Source: a virus
IMG/VR virus record: IMGVR_UViG_3300025141_016741
Coordinates: 1-38,529 of that record
DNA: 38,529 nt
Reading direction: 5' to 3' (one strand)
In this document: piece after piece, positions 21,080-34,834 of the stretch
Numbering within the stretch: the stretch's first letter is position 1
Layout: the number at the start of each line of letters is the position of its first letter
Made by a program: the position numbers and the translations under genes
Notes under the pieces: model-generated
Databases searched by the model: none
The model's input: the letters and a program-made list of their open reading frames with translations, nothing else
Told to the model about the DNA's origin: nothing

Positions 21080-22330
21080 ATGAGTACAATATCCAAGAAA
21101 AAAATACTAATGCTGTCTGATCATGCTTTGAGCACATCAGGCGTTGGCTGCCAAAGTCGATTTTTAATCGATGGGCTTTTGAAAAAAGGCTGCTGGTCAG
21201 TTCGACAGTTTGGCGCTGCTATGAAGCACAATAGCTACGATACAGTCGTAGTTAATCCTGACTTTGTTATTAAGCCCATAGACGGATTTGGTAACAGGGA
21301 GATGCTTTTACAGGCGCTGGCGACAGAAAAACCCGATGTTTTGTTTCTTTTTACAGATCCTAGATTTTTTATTTATGTCTGGGAGATGCACGATGAGATC
21401 AACAAGATCTGCCCTATTGCTTACTGGCATGTGTGGGATAATCGTCCAGCACCGTTCTTCAATAAAGTTCTTTATGAAGCGACTGATCTTATAAACTGTC
21501 ATAGTCATTTGACATATGAAGTAGTAAATGAGATCCTTCCTGGCAGGGCTAACTTTATTCCGCATGCTTTACCAGAAGAAATATTTTACCCCCTAACAGA
21601 AGAGCAAAAGAAACAGCATAAAACTAGCGTTTTAGGGCCTCATAGAGCTGATCATTTTACTGTTTTCTGGGTTAATAGAAATGCCAGACGAAAGAGGCCT
21701 GCTGATCTTCTAGAAGCATGGTCTAAATTTATGAGACGCATTGAAGCTGAAGGCAACAATGATGCAACTCTTTTAATGCATACTGATCCTTTAGACGGAG
21801 AGGGCCCAAATCTATTGGTCTGCACAGAAACGCTAGATATTGTAGAAAGTGTGGTGTTTTCCAACCAACGCGTAGAATTTGATAGAATGAATATTCTACA
21901 CAATATAACAGACTGCTGTATCAATATTGCCTATGCTGAAGGGTTTGGGCTGGCCACGCTCGAGGCTATGCAAGTAGGTAATCCTGTAATCGCTGTCAAA
22001 ACAGGAGGGCTTACCCGTCAAGCTGAAGATCACAGAGATGGTTCTCATAACGGCATTGCACTAGATGTGGAAATGCAATCTTTAGTTGGGTCACAAATGG
22101 TTCCATATATCTATGAAGATTATGTAAGCACTGACACAATAGCAGATTCATTGTATGAAATGTATAAAATGGGACCAGAAAAGAGAAAGGAACTCGGTGA
22201 CAAAGCTAGAAAATATGTGCAATCTGAGTTTGCTTTGCAGAATACTATAGATAAATGGCATGATACTTTATGGGATTTGACAGAAAACTATGAGCTTGAT
22301 GGAAAGTTTTGCTTAGAGGAGATAAAATAG
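21080..22330 (+). CDS. GT-B glycosyltransferase (family 4)
   Basis: A full-length 416-residue family 4 glycosyltransferase, clearly longer than those of the first block. ILMLSDHALSTSGVGCQSRF is the N-terminal strand and glycine loop. PDVLFLFTDPRFFIYVWEMH is in the acceptor domain. FTVFWVNRNARRKRPADLLE begins the donor domain with the basic patch that binds phosphate. AYAEGFGLATLEAMQVGNPV is the E-x7-E site, followed by AVKTGG. The C-terminal helix KARKYVQSEF packs back on the fold as usual. It is separated from the nuclease by 57 bases and coupled by TAGTG to the next GT. It may glycosylate a virion or surface component; unproven. Confidence 0.85.
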   Translation: MSTISKKKILMLSDHALSTSGVGCQSRFLIDGLLKKGCWSVRQFGAAMKHNSYDTVVVNPDFVIKPIDGFGNREMLLQALATEKPDVLFLFTDPRFFIYVWEMHDEINKICPIAYWHVWDNRPAPFFNKVLYEATDLINCHSHLTYEVVNEILPGRANFIPHALPEEIFYPLTEEQKKQHKTSVLGPHRADHFTVFWVNRNARRKRPADLLEAWSKFMRRIEAEGNNDATLLMHTDPLDGEGPNLLVCTETLDIVESVVFSNQRVEFDRMNILHNITDCCINIAYAEGFGLATLEAMQVGNPVIAVKTGGLTRQAEDHRDGSHNGIALDVEMQSLVGSQMVPYIYEDYVSTDTIADSLYEMYKMGPEKRKELGDKARKYVQSEFALQNTIDKWHDTLWDLTENYELDGKFCLEEIK

Positions 22331-23499
22331 TGAAGCGTGTATTAGTAAGAGGACCGCTGCTGTCACAATCAGGGTATGGTGAGCATTGCCGTCAAATCTT
22401 TCAGTTTTGTGAAACTCAAAAAAACTGGCAAGTGTCAGCACAGATTACGCCCTGGGGTATTACCCCATGGGTGATAAATTCAGAATTTGAAGGTGGTCTG
22501 TATGGAAGAATTATGGAAAAGTCAAGTGTGCCGACCGACGCAAAATTTGATATCACTTTTCAAGTACAGCTTCCTAACGAATGGGATCCGTCTGTAGGAA
22601 AATATAATGTGGGAGTTACTGCAGGAGTTGAAACGGATAGATGTTCTGTAGAATGGGCAACACTGCATAGAGAAAAAATGGACATGATGATTGTTCCTAG
22701 CGAGTTTTCAAAGAGAGCTTTTTTAAAGTCTGGGACCGGTAGAGAAAAGACACCAATTCATGTTGTGCCCGAAGCGTATTATGCTGACCTTGTAAATGAA
22801 CCTACGAGCGATGTTCTTGAAAATGTTACAACTAGCAAGAACTTTCTAATGGTGGGCGCTCTCGTTAGCGAAAATCCCAATGCTGATCGAAAAAATTTAG
22901 TAAACAGCATCAATTGGTTTATGCATGCCTTTCATAATAAAAAGGACGTAGGTCTAATAGTCAAAACTACCAAAGGAAGAGATACTTCTATTGATAGAGA
23001 GATCATTCGAAAAATGATGAAGCAAATTAGAAAGTCATCAGGCGCCGGAAGCTTTCCTAAGCTCTATATGCTTCATGGTTCAATGACTCGTCAAGAAATG
23101 ACAAGCTTATATAAGAGTGAAAAGATTTGTGCATTAGCTAGCGCTTCTAGAGGCGAAGGCTTTGGGCTACCTATGCTAGAAGCTGCTGTATGCGGATTAC
23201 CTGTGGTCGCCACAGACTGGTCAGCATACACAGAGTTTTTGTCAGGCCCTAGTTTTCTAAGAGTCAAGTACGATCTAAAATCCCTTGATCCTTCTAGAGT
23301 TGATGATAGAATTTTTGTAAAAAATGCCCAATGGGCTGAAGCTAGGCCAGGAAACTTTAAAAGAAAGCTAAAAATGGCCCTAGAGCAAAACGATATGCTC
23401 AAAGAAAAAGCACAGTCTCTTAGTAAAAAACTTCTAGAGACACACAGCCTTAAAAGGCTTTTTGATGAGTATAGAAGCATACTGTCAGAAGTAATGTGA
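22330..23499 (+). CDS. GT-B glycosyltransferase (family 4)
   Basis: A 389-residue glycosyltransferase. KRVLVRGPLLSQSGYGEHCR is the N-terminal strand and glycine loop. NVGVTAGVETDRCSVEWA is in the acceptor domain. FLMVGALVSENPNADRKNLV opens the donor domain, and ASRGEGFGLPMLEAAVCGLP carries the E-x7-E site followed by VATDWSAYTEFL. The start is the GTG at 22330, preceded by AGGAG 8 bases upstream and sharing its G with the upstream TAG; an in-frame alternative at 22309 lacks this site. Together with the preceding GT it forms a two-gene unit next to the late sigma factor. Confidence 0.85.
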   Translation: MKRVLVRGPLLSQSGYGEHCRQIFQFCETQKNWQVSAQITPWGITPWVINSEFEGGLYGRIMEKSSVPTDAKFDITFQVQLPNEWDPSVGKYNVGVTAGVETDRCSVEWATLHREKMDMMIVPSEFSKRAFLKSGTGREKTPIHVVPEAYYADLVNEPTSDVLENVTTSKNFLMVGALVSENPNADRKNLVNSINWFMHAFHNKKDVGLIVKTTKGRDTSIDREIIRKMMKQIRKSSGAGSFPKLYMLHGSMTRQEMTSLYKSEKICALASASRGEGFGLPMLEAAVCGLPVVATDWSAYTEFLSGPSFLRVKYDLKSLDPSRVDDRIFVKNAQWAEARPGNFKRKLKMALEQNDMLKEKAQSLSKKLLETHSLKRLFDEYRSILSEVM

Positions 23500-23508
23500 G
23501 GATCTTAG

Positions 23509-23805
23509 ATGGAGTACGCTGTAGTAATATTGAGCATTTTTCTATGTACGTCAGTTTATAAGAATGTTACATTAGGGCTTACTATCTTAAGATTAGAAGA
23601 TACAATTGAAGAAAGTTTAGATGTAATAGAAGAGAAGTACTCAATAATGAGTGAAATATTAAAGAGGCCCCTGTTCTTTGATAGTCCTGAGGTCAAGTCT
23701 GTTGTTAGAGAGATTCGTGCCGTTAGAGCTTCTCTTCATAGCGTTGCAGCCGCTTTAGAGAAGAATGCAAATGAAAGTATCGAAGAAGAGGTGTCTGATA
23801 TATGA
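23509..23805 (+). CDS. Small protein with N-terminal membrane anchor
   Basis: A 98-residue protein of unknown function. Residues 1-27 are hydrophobic (YAVVILSIFLCTSVYKNVTL), enough for one membrane segment or an uncleaved signal anchor. The remainder is highly charged and helical, with regular heptad-like spacing (LEDTIEESLDVIEEKY, VVREIRAVRASLHSVAAALE), so a coiled coil is likely. A good ribosome-binding site (GAGG) precedes the ATG. It overlaps the sigma factor gene by ATGA and so is expressed with it. It is not a recognised holin or spanin, although a single-span anchor plus coiled coil would not exclude lysis or membrane roles. Confidence 0.6.
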   Translation: MEYAVVILSIFLCTSVYKNVTLGLTILRLEDTIEESLDVIEEKYSIMSEILKRPLFFDSPEVKSVVREIRAVRASLHSVAAALEKNANESIEEEVSDI

Positions 23806-24530
23806 AAAAAAGAAAAAGAATAAAGAGAAAGCCCGGTCAAAAAAGTGTTTTGTACTTTAACAAAGATACAGAAGTTTCGATTGTTTCTTTCTTAGAGTCA
23901 AAAAGCAAAAAAGAAAGAGAAAATGTCTATAAGCTGGAAATACTTCCAGCCATGGAAAAGCTAGTAGAAAGCTTAATTTATGTTTATGGCTTTAAGTCAC
24001 CCCTTATGACGACCCCTGAGCTTATTGACGAAGGTTGCTTTTTTCTTTATAATTCATTGCACAAGTGGAACCCAGACAAAGGAAGCAAAGCATTTTCTTA
24101 CTTTAATGTGGTAGCAAAAAACTTTCTTATCAATACGACAAATAATCATAGAAAGAAGTATTTCAAGCATGTGCACTTAGACGATGTAAAATCAGTAAGT
24201 GGTGATATTAAGAAGCAAATTAGCAATTATGTAGAGCTTCCTTCTACTGAAGAGCTTATGATTATTCATGAAATTCGGGCAGAAAAAGTAGGAAGAGTAA
24301 AAAAGATAAGAGGACATCTAACAGATGATAGAGATCTTATAACAATTAGCGCTGTAGAAAGATTATTTGATGCAGCGAAAGAGCTTGATTTCATAAACAA
24401 GCAGTCTATCTATGTGTACCTTTCGGAAATTTCAGGATTAGAAAAGAAGCACATTTCGCAGTCCATGAGCAGAATTAGAAAGATATACTCAAGAATTGTT
24501 GTTGAGGAAAAAGAGACCAGTGAATTCTAA
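23802..24530 (+). CDS. Phage RNA polymerase sigma factor (late-transcription type)
   Basis: A 242-residue sigma70-like factor. Residues 1-20 are strongly basic. The region-2 equivalent spans about residues 45-115: EKLVESLIYVYGF, then LYNSLHKWNPDKGSKAFSYF and VVAKNFLINTTNNHRKKYF, where the last parts match the sigma region 2 helices for -10 recognition and melting. VYLSEISGLEKKHISQSMSR near the C-terminus looks like a helix-turn-helix-type region 4 or a shorter substitute. The pattern resembles the gp55-type late sigma factors of T4-superfamily phages. Its place immediately upstream of the baseplate genes fits control of late genes. Confidence 0.7.
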   Translation: MKKRKRIKRKPGQKSVLYFNKDTEVSIVSFLESKSKKERENVYKLEILPAMEKLVESLIYVYGFKSPLMTTPELIDEGCFFLYNSLHKWNPDKGSKAFSYFNVVAKNFLINTTNNHRKKYFKHVHLDDVKSVSGDIKKQISNYVELPSTEELMIIHEIRAEKVGRVKKIRGHLTDDRDLITISAVERLFDAAKELDFINKQSIYVYLSEISGLEKKHISQSMSRIRKIYSRIVVEEKETSEF

Positions 24531-24903
24531 AGATATCAAAAAAATTGAAAAAATGCTTGACAATGATAAAAAAGCTGAGAAAAAAATCAAAGACTTTGAA
24601 AAGACACTGGAATCAGCAAAGTCAGCAGATCCTAAAAAACTACATTTATGGCTAGAAATTTATAACAATGCCACCAATGATAGAACATGTGCTTCTGCTC
24701 TTTTTGCTCAAGCGTTTGCTCAGCTAGGAACATCAGCAGCCGATCACATGTCAATGGGCCCTACTCTTGTAAAATATCTAGAAAGAATGACGAAAGCAAA
24801 CGAGCAATTAATTGCTTTAGCACAGATTATTTCTAAAGAAATGGAAGCTATTAGCCAGGTAAATACAGATTCTATTTTTGAGCAGATAGAGGAAACGACA
24901 TGA
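24520..24903 (+). CDS. Small helical protein overlapping the sigma factor gene
   Basis: A 127-residue, helix-rich protein of unknown function. Residues 1-40 are lysine-rich and coiled-coil-like (DKKAEKKIKDFEKTLES); then LHLWLEIYNNATNDRTCA and LVKYLERMTKANEQLIALAQ are amphipathic helices. The start is the GTG at 24520, with GAGGAAA upstream, 11 bases inside the sigma gene; a TTG at 24496 is less likely. T4-type late transcription needs a small co-activator (gp33) beside gp55, so this gene is a candidate partner by position and size only. A structural or chaperone role for the following spike gene is the alternative. Confidence 0.55.
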   Translation: MNSKDIKKIEKMLDNDKKAEKKIKDFEKTLESAKSADPKKLHLWLEIYNNATNDRTCASALFAQAFAQLGTSAADHMSMGPTLVKYLERMTKANEQLIALAQIISKEMEAISQVNTDSIFEQIEETT

Positions 24904-26564
24904 GCAGACGTCTTATAGCTCAAAGAGGACTCAAAGGATTAGACAATGATCTAACTCAAAGAATTTCATCTTCAGAAGAAGTTAAAGTGTCCCAGGCACA
25001 AATATTCTACAAGGCGCTAGTAATAGACACTATTAGTGATCCTTCTTTACCTATGGAGGAAGATACGCCGAGAACAGAAAACTTTGAAAGCTTATCTTCT
25101 GTAGAAAAGAAAAGATTTATGACAGCACCAAGAAATTCTTTATTATGTCGCTTAATAAAGGAGGGCGACGGTGTAGAAGTAGACACTTTTGTCTGTTATC
25201 CTTTTTTCTCTTCGCATGTGGCTTTGCCAGCTAAACCGGGTGAAGTAGTTTGGCTTATGAGAGAAAATATGAGCGATCCTGCAAAGCAAAAAAATTATTG
25301 GATGACAAGAGTCGCAGGAGAGCTTGGTTTAGAAGATGCCAATTTTACATCTTATACAAGAAACATCCAGATCTCCCATACAGGATCCATAAGCCCAGAA
25401 GGCAGAAAAGCTCTATTCCCCAACCAGACTCCAGGACTTGGAGCTGAAGAAAAATTTGATGAAAGTCTTGACGACCCGAACGGTTTGGCACCTTACTTAG
25501 ATAAGTCACCTGAATCAAACTCAGTCGTACATGAACCTGTGCCTCGTCTTACAAAGCGCCCAGGAGATCTAACACTACAGGGTTCTAACAATACAGCTAT
25601 TATTTTAGGCACTGATAGAGAGGCGGGCACGTATAATCTGTCTAATAGGCCAGACAAGCCTACAAATTCAAATGCTTCAAAAAAGATTGACAATAATTCA
25701 AAAATAGGATCTATCGATATTGTTGTTGGAAGAGGAAGGTACTTTGAGCCTGACACTGATGTTGCAAAGTCTAGCAGAAAAAGTGCTGAAGCATCTGGAG
25801 TAAAAAATAGCACCCAACCTTTTATTGTTGAAAATAGCTTAGAATCAAAATATGAAACTGATAAAAATCCTGCAATGACTCAAGATGTTGTGGCTATTTC
25901 CGAAGATGAAGATCAACCAGAGCCAGGAAATAGACTTACTAATCCAGCCGAAGGCGACCCAGATTTTCTTGTAGATGCATGTCGAATTTATGCAGCAGAA
26001 AACACAGCAGTAGATGTAAATCTAGGTCTAGACCAAATTATTCCTACTAAAATTCAAGGAGGGAAGTTTGAGTCGTCTTCCGGACCATCAATTGCGGTAA
26101 AGTCAGACCACATAAGGATTGTTGCAAGAAAAGCCCCGAACGAAAAGGCAAAAGCCGACTTATTGCCAAAAGGTTTCGAAGGCGTTAATGGAACAATCCG
26201 AATTGTCAAAGAGGGCGATGCTAGTTCTGATTTGTCAAGTATCATAATGGAAGCTGACGGAACTATACAAATAAGTGGTTCAAAGATTTTCTTGGGTCGT
26301 GCCACTAGCGATGGTGGGAACGGAAAAGGGCCGGGTGAAGGAGAGTCGCAACCGTATGTGAGATACTCAGACTTAGAAAAATTATGGCAAGACACAATGA
26401 CAGCGCTAGATTCTTTTTGTCAAACGCTCTCAACGCATACAACTCCTGGGTACGGAGCTCCTTCGCCACAAATTACATCTGCTGCTGCTACACTCAAAGG
26501 TGAGATCGCAAGCTTAAAGCAGGCAATTACAACTGTAAAGTCAGAAAGAATCTTTGGAGAATAA
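24900..26564 (+). CDS. Baseplate spike/hub protein (gp5/gpV-like)
   Basis: A 554-residue protein. FVCYPFFSSHVALPAKPGEV (about residues 97-116) and VVWLMRENM fit the OB-fold that anchors central spike proteins to the hub. The middle (about 170-370) is low in order and rich in Pro, Asp, Ser and Asn. IAVKSDHIRIVARK and IIMEADGTIQISGSKIFLGR (near 400-465) are repeated short beta strands like the spike beta-helix of gpV/gp5, with the familiar ISGSKIFLG ending. A helical tail of about 65 residues follows. It lies before a gp25-type wedge gene as in many myoviruses. No lysozyme domain like that of T4 gp5 is visible. Confidence 0.7.
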   Translation: MSRRLIAQRGLKGLDNDLTQRISSSEEVKVSQAQIFYKALVIDTISDPSLPMEEDTPRTENFESLSSVEKKRFMTAPRNSLLCRLIKEGDGVEVDTFVCYPFFSSHVALPAKPGEVVWLMRENMSDPAKQKNYWMTRVAGELGLEDANFTSYTRNIQISHTGSISPEGRKALFPNQTPGLGAEEKFDESLDDPNGLAPYLDKSPESNSVVHEPVPRLTKRPGDLTLQGSNNTAIILGTDREAGTYNLSNRPDKPTNSNASKKIDNNSKIGSIDIVVGRGRYFEPDTDVAKSSRKSAEASGVKNSTQPFIVENSLESKYETDKNPAMTQDVVAISEDEDQPEPGNRLTNPAEGDPDFLVDACRIYAAENTAVDVNLGLDQIIPTKIQGGKFESSSGPSIAVKSDHIRIVARKAPNEKAKADLLPKGFEGVNGTIRIVKEGDASSDLSSIIMEADGTIQISGSKIFLGRATSDGGNGKGPGEGESQPYVRYSDLEKLWQDTMTALDSFCQTLSTHTTPGYGAPSPQITSAAATLKGEIASLKQAITTVKSERIFGE

Positions 26565-26566
26565 TA

Positions 26567-26830
26567 ATGTCACTATCATCAGCAAAGTCTAAGCTAGAAA
26601 AAGATATTAAAAAAGCATACTCTGATTCCAAAAAAGCAGGAGCCGTCGACGGAGCCAATCCTGACTCTATTATCAATACTCTTGCAAACGGAATTGGAAA
26701 TGCAATTCATAATTTTATGCTTCAAGCACAAGTAAGCGTTACTGTATCAGTTCCGCCTGAGATGACATCTCCGCCGCCTGCTGCTTCTTTGATTCCTACA
26801 ACTTGCATGGGCAAGGGAAACCTGACGTGA
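26567..26830 (+). CDS. Small baseplate-region protein, single repeat copy
   Basis: An 87-residue protein of unknown function between the spike and wedge genes. Residues 3-64 form one copy of a repeat also found twice in the next gene: SAKSKLEKDIKKAY, then a GAxDGAxPDSII turn, then a helix ending in an alternating hydrophobic strand VSVTVSVPP. A Pro-rich linker leads to the ending MGKGNLT. The start follows GGAG with the right distance. Size and place, next to the spike, recall tip or hub accessory proteins, but there is no recognisable PAAR motif. Confidence 0.65.
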   Translation: MSLSSAKSKLEKDIKKAYSDSKKAGAVDGANPDSIINTLANGIGNAIHNFMLQAQVSVTVSVPPEMTSPPPAASLIPTTCMGKGNLT

Positions 26831-27281
26831 GAGATATATGTCGTTACAATCAGCAAAAAGCAAGCTAACATCAGAAATAAAAAAGGCCTTGACTGAGCAA
26901 AAAAATGCCGGCGCTAAAGACGGAGCATCTCCTCAATCAATAGTATCTGATTATTCTAAAACAGTTGCAGATGCGATAAAAGCATATATAGAGTCTGCTA
27001 CTGTGGTTGGAAGCGCTACTGTTCCGCCTAGAATAGGCCCAACGCCTACGTTCGGTGTAGGGAACGCAGCTGGAGGCCCTGAGGTTTTCTCTAATGGAAA
27101 AGTAAGCTTTACGACTAATTCTGCTCTAAAGTCTGCTCTAGACTCAGCTCAAAACAAGTCTAAGGATGAAGGAGCAAAAGATGGCGCAAGCCCTGATTCT
27201 ATTATCTCTACACTGGCAAAGGAAATAACAGAAGGAATTCATAGTTTTGCTACAACAGCAATGGTCACCATCGATCTTCCT
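26573..27281 (+). repeat. Three copies of a ~60-residue coding repeat in two genes
   Basis: Copies lie at about 26573-26758, 26844-27023 and 27120-27281. Common core: S-A-x-S-x-L, a Lys/Gln/Asp-rich helix, the turn GAxDGAxP(D/Q)SI, a helix with A/G-I-H/K, then an alternating V/T strand. The first copy is a whole gene, the other two sit in the next gene. The copies differ at many positions, so this is an old domain duplication. Confidence 0.75.
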
Positions 27282-27401
27282 ACAACACCTGGCAAACCTG
27301 TTATAGGGTTTATGATGTTGACGTCTCCATCACCGGTACCACCACCTATACCTGCTACTACTATGGGCACGGTGGGGAAGGGAGTAGGCAATTTATCATA
27401 A
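26838..27401 (+). CDS. Baseplate-region protein with two repeat copies
   Basis: A 187-residue protein of unknown function. Residues 3-62 and 95-148 are two copies of the repeat that makes up the preceding 87-residue protein. The cores are NAGAKDGASPQSIVSDY and DEGAKDGASPDSIISTL. A Gly/Pro/Ser/Thr-rich linker (63-94) joins them, and a proline-rich end leads to GKGVGNLS, close to GKGNLT of its neighbour. It looks like a fusion of two one-copy genes. A structural part at the spike-wedge contact is the likely role (context). A 57-base gap follows. Confidence 0.65.
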   Translation: MSLQSAKSKLTSEIKKALTEQKNAGAKDGASPQSIVSDYSKTVADAIKAYIESATVVGSATVPPRIGPTPTFGVGNAAGGPEVFSNGKVSFTTNSALKSALDSAQNKSKDEGAKDGASPDSIISTLAKEITEGIHSFATTAMVTIDLPTTPGKPVIGFMMLTSPSPVPPPIPATTMGTVGKGVGNLS

Positions 27402-27458: not shown

Positions 27459-27944
27459 ATGCCAGCAGCAAAAAAAACCTATAGCTTTAAATCGGTAGGG
27501 CAACTTGAAGAAACTGTCGACAATATAATAAAAGAAACAGCTGTCAATTTACCGATTGGGCTCTTGACGCCGCTATCTTTTAGTCCGACAGGAAATTCAA
27601 TGTTTAGAATGTCTACAGACATTGGCGAACAAATAAAAGATAATTTGCGTAATCTACTTTCTACAAACAAAGGAGAAAGGCTGATGATAGCTGACTTTGG
27701 CACAAATCTAAAAGAACTGGCTTATGATATATCGACAGAAGAGACAGACTCAATAGCAATCAAAAGAATAGCTGATTCTGTAGGAAGATATATGCCTTTT
27801 GTTGAATTGAATACATTTGTGCCAAATTTACAAAGATCTCCAGCGGGCGACGTGGTGCTAAGTACTATAACAATAGGGTACGATGTTCCAGGTGCAGGAA
27901 TTACGGGAGAGCTATTAGAGATAGCTTTGGTGGTGACTAGTTAA
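27459..27944 (+). CDS. 25: Baseplate wedge protein, GPW/gp25 family
   Basis: A 161-residue protein. IKDNLRNLLSTNKGERLMIA followed by DFGTNLKELAYD is the typical GPW/gp25 core (NL-x-LL-T-xxGER-x5-FG-x-L). After it come the helix IAIKRIADSVGRYMPFVELN and the two-stranded end VVLSTITIGYDVPG. T4 gp25 is 132 residues; this one has a longer N-terminus. It joins the sheath-initiating side of the baseplate wedge and lies directly before a gp6-type gene, the standard order. The symbol is given by analogy with T4. Confidence 0.85.
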   Translation: MPAAKKTYSFKSVGQLEETVDNIIKETAVNLPIGLLTPLSFSPTGNSMFRMSTDIGEQIKDNLRNLLSTNKGERLMIADFGTNLKELAYDISTEETDSIAIKRIADSVGRYMPFVELNTFVPNLQRSPAGDVVLSTITIGYDVPGAGITGELLEIALVVTS

Positions 27945-27945
27945 A

Positions 27946-29790
27946 ATGGCGTATCAACTCAAAAAGAAGCTCAAGAAAGAGCAGAATAGAACTTATACTG
28001 CAAGAGACTTTGAGTCTCTAAGACAGCAACTTCTAAGTACAGCTAGAACATATTTTCCGGATAAAATACAAGATTTTTCTGAACCTTCTGTCGGAGGAAT
28101 GTTCTTAGACTTTGCTGCAACAGTCGGTGATTCATTAAATTATTATCTTGATCACTCTTTTAGAGAGCTAGATCCATTTAGGGCAACTGAGACAGACAAC
28201 ATTATTACTCACTTAGAGAATGCCGGTGTAGATATAGTCGGAGCTTCGCCTTCTGTAGTTCTTCTAAAGTTCCAGATCACAGTGCCCGCTCAACTCATAA
28301 ACAATGAGTATCTACCAAAAAGATCTGCAATGCCTATTTTTCTTGCAGGAACACAGACGTCTTCAGCATCAGGAATACCTTTCACAACAATAAATGACAT
28401 AGACTTTTCGGAAAAAGATGAGGACGGCGCTTTTGTTTGCAAATATGCAATTGCCTCTACAGACGCCAGCGGAGCTCCATCATCTTTTTTTGTAACAGGA
28501 GAAGTTTACGCAGTTTCTGGCCAGATAAGAACTGAGTCCATAACTTTAGGCGATGATTTTGTTGCATTTAGGGAGATGCAGCTAGCAGAAAAAAATATTA
28601 CGTCAATACTGTCAGTAACAGACACAGAGCTTAATAAATATTTTCATGTCTCTTCCTTGAGTGAAGACACAGCTTTTGAAAAAGTTAAGAATAATGATGC
28701 CGATTCAAGTCAAGTTCCTTATTACATAAGAGTGGTCGCTGCACCCTATAGATTTGTAAGATTTTATAGCCCAATAACACAGCTGACAACGCTAAGGTTT
28801 GGATCAGGTGATGCTTCATCTTTAGACGACGATATTGTCCCTGACCCTAGTGATCTTGCTTTAAACTTATACGGTAAAACAACAGTTCCCAGGTTTAGCA
28901 TAAATCCTGAAAACTTACTAAAAACCCAGACACTAGGAATATCTCCTAAAGGGACGACTCTCAATATTACATACCGACATGGTGGCGGGCTTTCTCATAA
29001 CGTATCTGAGGGTCAAATTGAGCAAATTGATTTTCTATCGATATCTTTTAGAAGAAGCCCCACTGCGGCCGACGCGCTATCTGTCAGGCAATCAGTTAGC
29101 GTAACTAATTTACAGTCCGCTTCAGGAGGAGATAGTGCCCCGACCTTACAAGACTTGCAGCTAAGAATTCCAAGTGCTAGAAAGTCCCAGCGTCGTGTGG
29201 TCTCAAGAGAAGACTTGCTCGCAAGAGTCTATTCACTACCTAGTGAGTTTGGACGCATCTATAGGGCTTCGCTAACTGATAACCCTGTAAACCCTATGTC
29301 TGCAATACTTTATGTTTTATCACGAGATCAAAAAGGGCATCTTGCAGTCTCGCCTGACTCTTTAAAGAAGAATATTCAAACTTATCTCAATGAGCTTCGA
29401 CTTATAGGCGACTCTATTGATATACTAGATGCAAAAATTATAAACTTTGGAGTGAAATACAGTGTTCACGTAGCAGAAAATGCAAATAAAGCGCAAGTTA
29501 TTACAGACATCAATTCTAGAATATCATCTATCATGTCTAGACAGTTTTTCAATATAGACCAACCTATCATCATAGACAATATTACAAATATGATTATCAA
29601 TACTAATTTTGTGGTTTCTTTGATAGACTTGCAAGTCTTTCCGAGGGCTGGAGAAGTAGAAGGAAGAACATACAATGCATCGGGATTTGACTTTAAGCAA
29701 AGCAGCAAAAAAGGGATAATAATGCCAGGAAGAGGAACGATTTTTGAGCTAAAATTCCCTGACTTTGACATTATAGGCACAGCATACTAA
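27946..29790 (+). CDS. 6: Baseplate wedge protein, gp6/baseplate-J-like
   Basis: A 614-residue structural protein. The opening, TARDFESLRQQLLSTARTYF then SEPSVGGMFLDFAATVGDSL, is typical of gp6/J-type wedge proteins, where a helix pair and the GxxFLDFxA segment make the core dimer. YYLDHSFRELDPFRATETDN continues the family pattern, and VVSREDLLARVYSLPSEFGR and YLNELRLIGDSIDILDAKI in the second half match the later domain. T4 gp6 is 660 residues, so the length agrees. It forms the ring of the baseplate wedges with the gp25-type protein. The symbol is by analogy with T4. Confidence 0.8.
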   Translation: MAYQLKKKLKKEQNRTYTARDFESLRQQLLSTARTYFPDKIQDFSEPSVGGMFLDFAATVGDSLNYYLDHSFRELDPFRATETDNIITHLENAGVDIVGASPSVVLLKFQITVPAQLINNEYLPKRSAMPIFLAGTQTSSASGIPFTTINDIDFSEKDEDGAFVCKYAIASTDASGAPSSFFVTGEVYAVSGQIRTESITLGDDFVAFREMQLAEKNITSILSVTDTELNKYFHVSSLSEDTAFEKVKNNDADSSQVPYYIRVVAAPYRFVRFYSPITQLTTLRFGSGDASSLDDDIVPDPSDLALNLYGKTTVPRFSINPENLLKTQTLGISPKGTTLNITYRHGGGLSHNVSEGQIEQIDFLSISFRRSPTAADALSVRQSVSVTNLQSASGGDSAPTLQDLQLRIPSARKSQRRVVSREDLLARVYSLPSEFGRIYRASLTDNPVNPMSAILYVLSRDQKGHLAVSPDSLKKNIQTYLNELRLIGDSIDILDAKIINFGVKYSVHVAENANKAQVITDINSRISSIMSRQFFNIDQPIIIDNITNMIINTNFVVSLIDLQVFPRAGEVEGRTYNASGFDFKQSSKKGIIMPGRGTIFELKFPDFDIIGTAY

Positions 29791-31348: not shown

Positions 31349-34300
31349 ATGGCCAAAAATGAAACTAGTTTAGAAAGTAGCCAGCTATTTCAAGCAGGAA
31401 TTAGAAAAAATAATTTTGAAGATCTTACACCAGTGTCATCTATGACAATGGCAGATGTTGAAAATACTCTTTCTTCGCTAACTGGTACTTTTCGATTTGA
31501 TTCTCCTGGTGCACCTTTAAAAAGCACACAGCAACTCAACGTTGACTTTTCTGATTTTTCTAATCATACTTTTTTTAACAGTGCACAAGCAAAGACGCAA
31601 AAAGCATTCCAAAAAATAATAAACAATATGCCTTTCGACGGTACAAAGTCGAACCTAGTAGAGTTTGTTGACGGCCTATCAGGTTTTGAAAAATATGTTC
31701 TAGACAATTTTCCTAAGAACAACGGATACTTGGCCTTTAGCGGAAGCTCTGGAGCTTCTGGGGGTTCTTACATAGAAATTAATGATTTCAAAGGCGCAAA
31801 TTCTTTTACTCTAGCTGAAAATCCTACAGGCGTCTCAGTTATTGATCCTGGAACAAAACCATTCACATTTGAGTTTTTTATAAATGTTCCAAGCGGATCA
31901 CAAAATGACAATCAGATTATAGCTCAAAAATTGAGCGGAAGCAACGGAATAACTCTTTGTCTATCTTCTTCTGCTAGCAAAGCAAGCCCGGAAGGCGAGG
32001 TTGACTTTTTGACGCTAATAAGCTCAGGAAGCCTTTGCTTGAGTGCATCAATTACTATACCGAAAGGAAAATTTACGCATATAGCATCTGTGTTCGATAG
32101 AACGACAGGGCCCGGCAAGTTGACTATATACAAAGATGCTATTTTTGACAAAAACGATGCTAAGTCTTCTTCTAGCGTAGGTAACTTAGGTGATATAGAC
32201 TTTAAAACGTCCCAGATGTTCATAGGAAGCGGATCAGAGCATTCTTTCGGCAATTATGTGTTTACACCCCAAGAAACACTTTCAGGAGCACTAGATGAAC
32301 TTAAGATGTGGCATGCTAGAAGAACACAAAAAGAGATCTATAACGATAGATTTTTAGATACATTTGCGCAAAACAACCTTCAGATTCTCTATAGATTCAA
32401 TGAGCCTTCCGGAAGCTTTACGGGAACAGGAGAAAATTTAGTTTTAGATTCTAGCGGGAATGGTTTGCACGCAAATATCCAGAATTTTTCAATGTTTCTT
32501 AGAAATACAGGAACTTATGGACCAGCCCCAGTTACGGAATATTCAAGCGATGCAGCTACTGTTTTATTTCCATCATATGCAGATACTATTTCTCTAAACG
32601 AGGGGCTTTTGACAGAAGCTCTTAGTTATGATGCGAACAATCCTAACGTAGTTACTAAATTAATTCCAAGTCATTATCTAAGAGACGCTGCGCAGTTTGA
32701 AGGATTTGAAACGAAAGATGCTGATCTAAACAAAACTCTTTCAAACACACAGGATGAGCCCGGAGGGGCAACTGTAGGACAAGCCCAAATTATCGCAGGA
32801 ATGTTATATACGTTTTCAGAAACATTTGATGAGCTCAAAATGTTTGTAGATGAATTTAAAAGATTACTAAAGGTAGACGTTATAACTAATGAGACAATAA
32901 GCAATCAATTACTTCCATGGCTATCAAGATATTATGGAATTTCTCTGCCTAATTTTTTCTCAACGGCAACAAGTAAGCAGTTTTCAGAAGGTAAAAATGT
33001 TAGCATGGATCGAACAAACTCAACTAGCTTGCAGACTGTTCAAAATATGCTTTGGAGAAGAATTTTTTCAGACTTGCCTTATATTTTTTCTACAAGGGGA
33101 ACTCATGCTTCACTAAGGTCTGTTTTGTCGAATTTAGGAATAAGCCCAAACGGCCCGATTAGAATCAGAGAGTTTGGCGGATCAAAACAAAGAAACCTAG
33201 GCGACTCTTTTTTAAAGAGACATGAAATTGCAGCTCTGCTAAACATGAGCGGAACCTTGGCAGATCCAGGCACGTTAAACCCGCAAGGAATAGATAGCAC
33301 TCGTCCTTTTCTGTTAGGCTCGTACCTCTCAGGCTCAAGATCTGAGCCCGGAATACCGCTAATTGACGGGACACTATCAGATGGTGTCTCTAACGATCCG
33401 TCTGATGGACTTTTTACGTCTGGGTCCTGGTCTGTTGAGGGGACCTATAAGTTTGAAGATCAATTGGTTCACAATTCTTTGCAAAGCCTTGTTAGACTTC
33501 ATTCGACAGGTACAAACTCGGCTTCAAGTAGTCACGGAGTTCTTTTCAATCTTCTTGCTCTTAAGCCAGACGTAGATGCATCAGTAACAGGAAGTTTAAC
33601 ACTTTATGGAAGGCCGAGCTCTGCTGCTTCTTCTGATCTTTTTACTCTTCACATCACTGGAGTGAATGTATTCGATGGGGGCAAATGGAGTATTGCTTTC
33701 GGTAGAGATAGAAATGATCTTATAAATTCTTATACATCATCATCTTATTTTCTTAGGGCAGGAAAATTTAGTCCTGCTGGATTGCAGCAGTTTTTTACGA
33801 CATCAAGCTACTTTAATGACTCTAGCTCTAATGTATTGCAAAATATTGATGCATACAATACTAGCGGAACTTTTTTGGTCGTCGGAAGCCAGAGTCTAGA
33901 CGTATCTACAGCTAGATTTCTAAACGATCCTGCAGTTACAGGATCATCACGAGAAACTAGATTTTCTGGAAAGCTTTCTGGGCTGAGATTCTGGTCAAAA
34001 GGACTTACAGAAAAAGAATCTCTTACACATGTCAAAAATTTCAAGTCTCTGGGCGTGGAAGATCCTGAAGTCAATTTTAACTTTGTGACTTCTGCTTCGG
34101 GCTCATTCCAGCGCCTTAGACAAGATGTATCAATTGACCAGCCCATAACAAAGTCTGATGCATCAGGTGACATATCATTTTTTGATTTTTCCCAAAACTT
34201 GCTAACTTTTACTGGTACAGGATTCGAAAGCAACAAACAAGTAATAGATCCAGAAAGATTTGATTTTGAAGTTATTTCACCCAACTTCCAGTCAGGGGAG

Positions 34301-34834
34301 AATCCTAATAAAATACGTGTTAGAAGCTATTTGAATCACGATAATATTACAGCTTTCGGAGGAGAAAAAGCCCCTCTGTATCACTTACCACAAAATGAAC
34401 AGCCTCAAGATGACAAAAGAGTCTCCATTGAAGTTTCTGTTGTCCAGGCTCTCAACGAAGATATTATGAACATTTTTGCGACCCTTGACACCCTTGACAA
34501 TGTGATAGGAAGCCCAGAGCTTATTTTCTCACAAGACTACCCACAGCTAAGAAACTTAAGAAGAATTTATTTCCAGCGTCTTACAGAGAAAATAAATCTT
34601 CAATCATTTTTTGAATTTTTCAAATGGTTTGACAGCACCATTATAGATTTATTAGTGCAGATGCTGCCCAGCAATTCAAAATTCTCAGGCGCTTCGTATG
34701 TAATTGAATCACATGCCCTAGAGCGACCAAAGTTTACTTACAAATACTATGATATGTACTTGGGAGAATCAGATCGAGGTGGTAAAGAAGTGATTGAGCT
34801 CCGCCAGCTTGTCGGAACTATAAGGAAACTATAA
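31349..34834 (+). CDS. Large LamG-bearing tail/baseplate protein
   Basis: A 1161-residue protein. Around residues 130-370 there is a LamG/concanavalin-like beta-sandwich (FTFEFFINVPSGSQNDNQII, GALDELKMWHARRTQKEIYN, then VLDSSGNGLHAN). A second, similar domain lies at about 684-894 (GKLSGLRFWSKGLTEKESL). Between them, FSTRGTHASLRSVLSNLGIS and RIREFGGSKQRNLG (about 575-620) are a segment that I recall as recurrent in large marine-myovirus baseplate proteins. The C-terminal 150 residues are helical and Phe-rich. LamG domains bind glycans, so this may be a receptor-facing part. It would fill the gp7-type position in the order, but I see no clear likeness to T4 gp7. Confidence 0.65.
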   Translation: MAKNETSLESSQLFQAGIRKNNFEDLTPVSSMTMADVENTLSSLTGTFRFDSPGAPLKSTQQLNVDFSDFSNHTFFNSAQAKTQKAFQKIINNMPFDGTKSNLVEFVDGLSGFEKYVLDNFPKNNGYLAFSGSSGASGGSYIEINDFKGANSFTLAENPTGVSVIDPGTKPFTFEFFINVPSGSQNDNQIIAQKLSGSNGITLCLSSSASKASPEGEVDFLTLISSGSLCLSASITIPKGKFTHIASVFDRTTGPGKLTIYKDAIFDKNDAKSSSSVGNLGDIDFKTSQMFIGSGSEHSFGNYVFTPQETLSGALDELKMWHARRTQKEIYNDRFLDTFAQNNLQILYRFNEPSGSFTGTGENLVLDSSGNGLHANIQNFSMFLRNTGTYGPAPVTEYSSDAATVLFPSYADTISLNEGLLTEALSYDANNPNVVTKLIPSHYLRDAAQFEGFETKDADLNKTLSNTQDEPGGATVGQAQIIAGMLYTFSETFDELKMFVDEFKRLLKVDVITNETISNQLLPWLSRYYGISLPNFFSTATSKQFSEGKNVSMDRTNSTSLQTVQNMLWRRIFSDLPYIFSTRGTHASLRSVLSNLGISPNGPIRIREFGGSKQRNLGDSFLKRHEIAALLNMSGTLADPGTLNPQGIDSTRPFLLGSYLSGSRSEPGIPLIDGTLSDGVSNDPSDGLFTSGSWSVEGTYKFEDQLVHNSLQSLVRLHSTGTNSASSSHGVLFNLLALKPDVDASVTGSLTLYGRPSSAASSDLFTLHITGVNVFDGGKWSIAFGRDRNDLINSYTSSSYFLRAGKFSPAGLQQFFTTSSYFNDSSSNVLQNIDAYNTSGTFLVVGSQSLDVSTARFLNDPAVTGSSRETRFSGKLSGLRFWSKGLTEKESLTHVKNFKSLGVEDPEVNFNFVTSASGSFQRLRQDVSIDQPITKSDASGDISFFDFSQNLLTFTGTGFESNKQVIDPERFDFEVISPNFQSGENPNKIRVRSYLNHDNITAFGGEKAPLYHLPQNEQPQDDKRVSIEVSVVQALNEDIMNIFATLDTLDNVIGSPELIFSQDYPQLRNLRRIYFQRLTEKINLQSFFEFFKWFDSTIIDLLVQMLPSNSKFSGASYVIESHALERPKFTYKYYDMYLGESDRGGKEVIELRQLVGTIRKL

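Follow-up and report, generated by a model that had tools for sequence, protein, structure and literature searches.

A small repeat-protein family encoded directly after a putative phage spike gene

For a few model phages with PAAR tips, it is known how the contractile tail completes its spike and crosses the cell envelope. The T4 protein gp5.4 is located at the spike tip, with one copy for every three spike chains (PMC7600766). Phage P1 encodes UpfC, which is homologous to gp5.4, and additionally UpfB, a “tripod” anchored to the spike's distal end and speculated to aid membrane piercing (PMC12810830). The P1 upfC gene is dispensable for plaque formation, and the same applies to T4 gp5.4 according to a personal communication (PMC9024508). 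In the T4 genome, the tip gene 5.4 is found between the spike gene 5 and gene 6.

We analyzed a 38,529-nucleotide stretch of viral DNA, here called the window (positions 1 to 38,529 of the IMG/VR record IMGVR_UViG_3300025141_016741). An earlier note, made from this sequence alone, had placed two genes for repeat proteins at a border between spike and wedge genes. The wedge side of this border is confirmed by matches to known families. A gp25/W baseplate wedge gene occupies 27459..27944 (+ strand; PF04965, E 1.2e-7, and phrog_43), and a gp6/J wedge gene follows at 27946..29790 (+ strand; phrog_219, E 3.2e-6). The latter also matches PF04865 at 0.0017, which is below that family's curated cut-off.

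The putative spike is a gp5/VgrG-like protein of 554 amino acids (24900..26564, + strand), as judged from profile and structure comparison. The ORF has no match in Pfam, PHROG or NCBIfam, and its best match among sequences of solved structures, the T4 gp5 needle, is non-significant (0.44). It aligns with a profile of spike-position proteins from phages of the Microcystis/Flavobacterium/L109 type (hhalign E 8.9e-7, 91%). The predicted model (mean pLDDT 62.8) has an N-terminal OB-like barrel, a beta-helix-like region and a C-terminal alpha-hairpin, and matches a viral Gp5/Vgr OB-fold protein in BFVD (E 9.9e-6). Its OB region resembles P2 gpV, AFP and PVC baseplate chains with Z of 6.0–6.4, a range that unrelated OB-folds also reach. 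Assignment of this ORF as a gp5/VgrG-type spike is thus supported by the model and the profile, short of proof.

Gene 1 (26567..26830, + strand) starts 5 nt past the last sense codon of the spike ORF and encodes 87 amino acids with one repeat unit (family profile, E 6.3e-27). Gene 2 (26838..27401, + strand) encodes 187 amino acids with two units in tandem (E 4.2e-44), so both ORFs and their one-unit and two-unit composition are as the note had described them. The first unit of gene 2 (26838..27089, + strand) is 42–45% identical to gene 1, and the second (27090..27398, + strand) is 43% identical to it. The three copies share 20 invariant alignment columns and the core S-x-L...G-A-x-D-G-A-x-P-x-S-I...I...A-x-V. 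Smith-Waterman scores for the three pairs of copies are 148, 141 and 99. Shuffled sequences gave mean scores near 27–31 and maxima of 56–63, and none of 2000 shuffles matched any observed score (z = 24, 21 and 11.5), which refutes alignment by chance. Each copy has its own Gly-rich end: gene 1 closes with MGKGNLT, the first copy of gene 2 carries FGVGN, and gene 2 as a whole ends in VGKGVGNLS. The GKG(N/V..)L-type ends previously noticed on both proteins are therefore real. Gly-rich tails are also found in homologs. Since every copy carries such an end, the repeat unit consists of hairpin plus tail and measures about 85–100 residues, more than the roughly 60 first proposed.

The AlphaFold2 model of gene 1, made with a 15-sequence alignment, predicts an alpha-hairpin at residues 3–57 (26573..26737, + strand) with helices at 3–25 and 32–57. 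The pLDDT, taken per 10-residue block, is 80–93 through residue 50 and drops to 65 at residues 51–60. The Pro/Gly-rich tail (residues 60–87; 26744..26827, + strand) is unstructured in this monomer model, with pLDDT below 50, and may fold in an assembly only. In the model, then, the unit combines an alpha-hairpin of high confidence with a tail of low confidence behind it. No strand is predicted where a “V/T strand” had been read, and the model does not show a beta-strand repeat. A BFVD structure search with the unit gave no significant match, the best VIA-align hits (Z up to 7.6) are unrelated proteins, and look-ups for a structural relative returned generic helical hairpins only. The predicted fold is too common to place the protein, and structure matches are uninformative here. 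We also considered whether the unit is homologous to the C-terminal hairpin of the spike. A first-pass profile matched the spike of one relative (L012, E 1.1e-4), and this match was lost in later comparisons (hhalign probability 0.6%; final profile, E 0.46).

Models from Pfam, PHROG and NCBIfam match neither window protein, and this includes the wedge models PF04965, PF04865 and the wedge PHROGs. A PDB profile search with the window proteins found nothing significant (best E 0.015, to unrelated proteins). This agrees with the view that no known family covers the copies. Viral contigs searched directly with gene 2 or with the three-copy alignment gave no match. Relatives were reached by another route: a gp6 profile fetched 80 viral loci, in which the three-copy profile detected homologs at the same position, and a subfamily alignment then added further loci. 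The final profile matches 30 ORFs at E<1e-9 among the 2770 ORFs of the fetched loci, and the next match is at 0.0067. The 30 ORFs include both window genes and the near-identical contigs L102–L105, and L018 and L106 represent one contig; the number of independent lineages is therefore below 30.

Outside these loci, a search of annotated phages yielded no convincing relative of the unit (Phage DP-2017a matches at E 0.5). Neither a profile scan of genome contigs, of limited sensitivity, nor a comparison with eight cultured-phage and marine-virus records including T4, S-PM2, P-SSM2 and HTVC008M gave any match. On the sequence comparisons, the unit defines a previously unnamed, undescribed and fast-diverging protein family. 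Its genes are under purifying selection. In close gene pairs, differences fall mostly at third codon positions, and dN/dS is about 0.05–0.11 in the four pairs with computable dS, which shows the reading frames to be genuine and under constraint. PHROG 5576 (65 positions, function not assigned) may be a distant named relative. It matches two proteins encoded between spike and gp25 in relatives, L058 (1e-7) and L029 (0.0015), the second of which is also a match of the unit family (7.6e-11). However, neither window protein matches PHROG 5576, and L058 is not significant by the unit profile.

All 30 profile matches precede gp25 and share its strand. Wherever a contig has a spike ORF, the unit gene is the first gene after it, the one exception being gene 2 of the window, which stands behind gene 1. 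The adjacency to the spike is thus stronger than originally put, extending to every homologous locus with a spike. Spike and unit genes are separated by 3–26 nt or overlap slightly; in L045, L008 and L033, the overlap is only apparent and stems from choosing the earliest in-frame start. Almost throughout the close clade, the unit gene directly precedes gp25. L109, which belongs to another baseplate clade near Microcystis and Flavobacterium phages, keeps the spike-then-unit order and has a different ORF before gp25, an arrangement that links the family with the spike and not with gp25.

The slot between spike and gp25 is variable. In relatives it holds one unit, two units, proteins of about 200 amino acids, large unrelated ORFs or nothing. 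The ~200-aa proteins (L021, L057, L043 and L013) have an uncertain relation to the unit. A three-unit reading of L021 and L057 was rejected, as the profile matches their N-terminal parts only, and weakly. In L015, L042, L046 and L068, no ORF of at least 60 amino acids occurs between spike and gp25 (gaps of 6–76 nt). Ten large slot ORFs (300–950 aa) have no Pfam match, and two of these and the partial ORF of L041 have no PDB match. Such variability beside conserved spike and wedge proteins suits an accessory or cargo better than a structural joint.

Several slot proteins of relatives have very hydrophobic C-termini (L048:3500-4639, L026:4393-5478, L049:1832-2479, L038:2-910, L020:2-322 and L003:1-294) and end in a (V/I)GxIxGxG-like motif. 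It is possible that these are membrane-inserting parts. The L048 protein matches tape-measure PHROGs (1.4e-8) and is like hydrophobic tape-measure regions.

Of all loci examined, only the window has a one-unit gene with a two-unit gene behind it. L007, the nearest relative by gp6 (69%), has a two-unit gene, and its contig ends just upstream of it; a one-unit gene may also lie there, past the contig end. In a tree of units, most branches of which are poorly resolved, the two copies of L031 pair together (89/79), apart from the window and L007 copies. Two-unit genes would accordingly have arisen at least twice, a conclusion with moderate support from the unit sequences. The proposal that these proteins grew by duplication is strengthened by L031, a separate two-unit gene whose copies are nearest each other.

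Comparison with the known tips reveals both likeness and difference. Like T4 gp5.4, the family consists of small proteins encoded next to the spike gene, before gene 6. Unlike gp5.4 and UpfC, its members are predicted to combine an alpha-hairpin with a Gly-rich tail, and they occur as one, two or one plus two units. PF05488 (PAAR) has no match in the window genome, and the two window proteins, which it likewise does not match, are by this measure not PAAR proteins. The PAAR model matched T4 (1.8e-10) and P1 (1.2e-5) and none of the other 15 records searched, among them 7 longer family-carrying contigs (one of 281 kb), with the proviso that contigs may be incomplete. UpfB shares with the family's proposed location that it is an extra protein at the spike end. 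UpfB is described as three trimers, and the family profile gave no match in a search of the whole P1 genome.

Our preferred reading, which we hold tentatively, is that the family is a spike-bound accessory with the genomic place and the job of a gp5.4-type tip. The hairpin-plus-tail proteins would bind the spike trimer, with the distal end or the region close to it as the probable site, and would then finish or cap the spike, as the gp5.4/PAAR tip does in T4. So equipped, the spike would pass the cell envelope with their help. We infer the binding, the location at the tip and the role in penetration alike. The earlier note had suggested a tip, hub or needle accessory because of the position next to the spike; the adjacency itself is borne out by gene order, and the role is suggested by that order together with the absence of PAAR. 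These two points favor a functional replacement of the tip, PAAR absence being weak evidence for it given that contigs may be incomplete. The persistence of the spike-then-unit order in a different baseplate clade (L109) also speaks for a tip, and the empty slot of some relatives would, by analogy, be compatible with a dispensable accessory. Against it, the unit has no likeness in fold or sequence to PAAR or any tip protein.

Other roles were weighed against this one. The unit proteins could be structural adaptors that join the spike or hub to the gp25–gp6 wedge ring, with extra copies altering the symmetry match. A gene between spike and gp25, and mostly directly before gp25, is what an adaptor predicts, but in L109 the unit gene stays beside the spike while another ORF precedes gp25, and a slot without an ORF in several relatives is unexpected for a structural joint. 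We regard such a hub or wedge role as conceivable but less likely. Less likely again is a non-virion chaperone that assists assembly of the trimeric spike. A small, helical protein translated right after its client would fit that role, as would the tight spacing of the genes and the divergence of the family along with the spike. Yet loss of the slot gene, or its exchange for unrelated ORFs of 300–950 aa, is ill-suited to the need of a conserved spike, and Gly-rich tails have no obvious use in a chaperone.

We give still less credence to the unit as a cargo that rides on the spike or inside the tube until its release into the host envelope; the slot would then be a cargo slot like the genes beside vgrG. 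Slot contents do differ widely, including the hydrophobic C-termini and the tape-measure-like protein, and in a related Microcystis phage the spike ORF is followed by an ORF annotated as a putative chitinase. The unit, however, shows no enzymatic or transmembrane signature (maximum 19-residue hydropathy 0.76 and 0.91 for the two proteins), and the lack of Pfam matches in all ten large slot ORFs also argues against cargo.

Returning to the tip-like accessory, the one-plus-two arrangement of the window amounts to three units for a threefold spike. It is conceivable that the one- and two-unit proteins form a heteromeric three-hairpin cap, born of duplication and unrelated to PAAR, that took the place of the monomeric tip in uncultivated myophages of a widespread clade. 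We consider this more doubtful than any other reading discussed here; relatives have two units or one, so a stoichiometry of three units is no rule.

Regardless of its exact role, a conserved, spike-linked, non-PAAR family of uncultivated phages marks a variable slot in which position alone suffices to find tip, accessory or cargo proteins, and it yields a defined list of proteins to co-express with the spike.

Some further ORFs of the window merit mention. Two genes past gp6, a 1161-aa protein (31349-34834) has a LamG-like lectin domain (PF13385, 1.2e-11) and is a candidate receptor- or glycan-binding part. The adjacent ORFs at 21080-22330 and 22309-23499 resemble glycosyltransferases by eye. 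The ORF at 23802-24530 has a weak match to late sigma factors (phrog_234, 0.015; Sigma70_r2, 0.014), and ORFs of similar appearance occupy the same place before the spike gene in L004, L005, L006 and L109.
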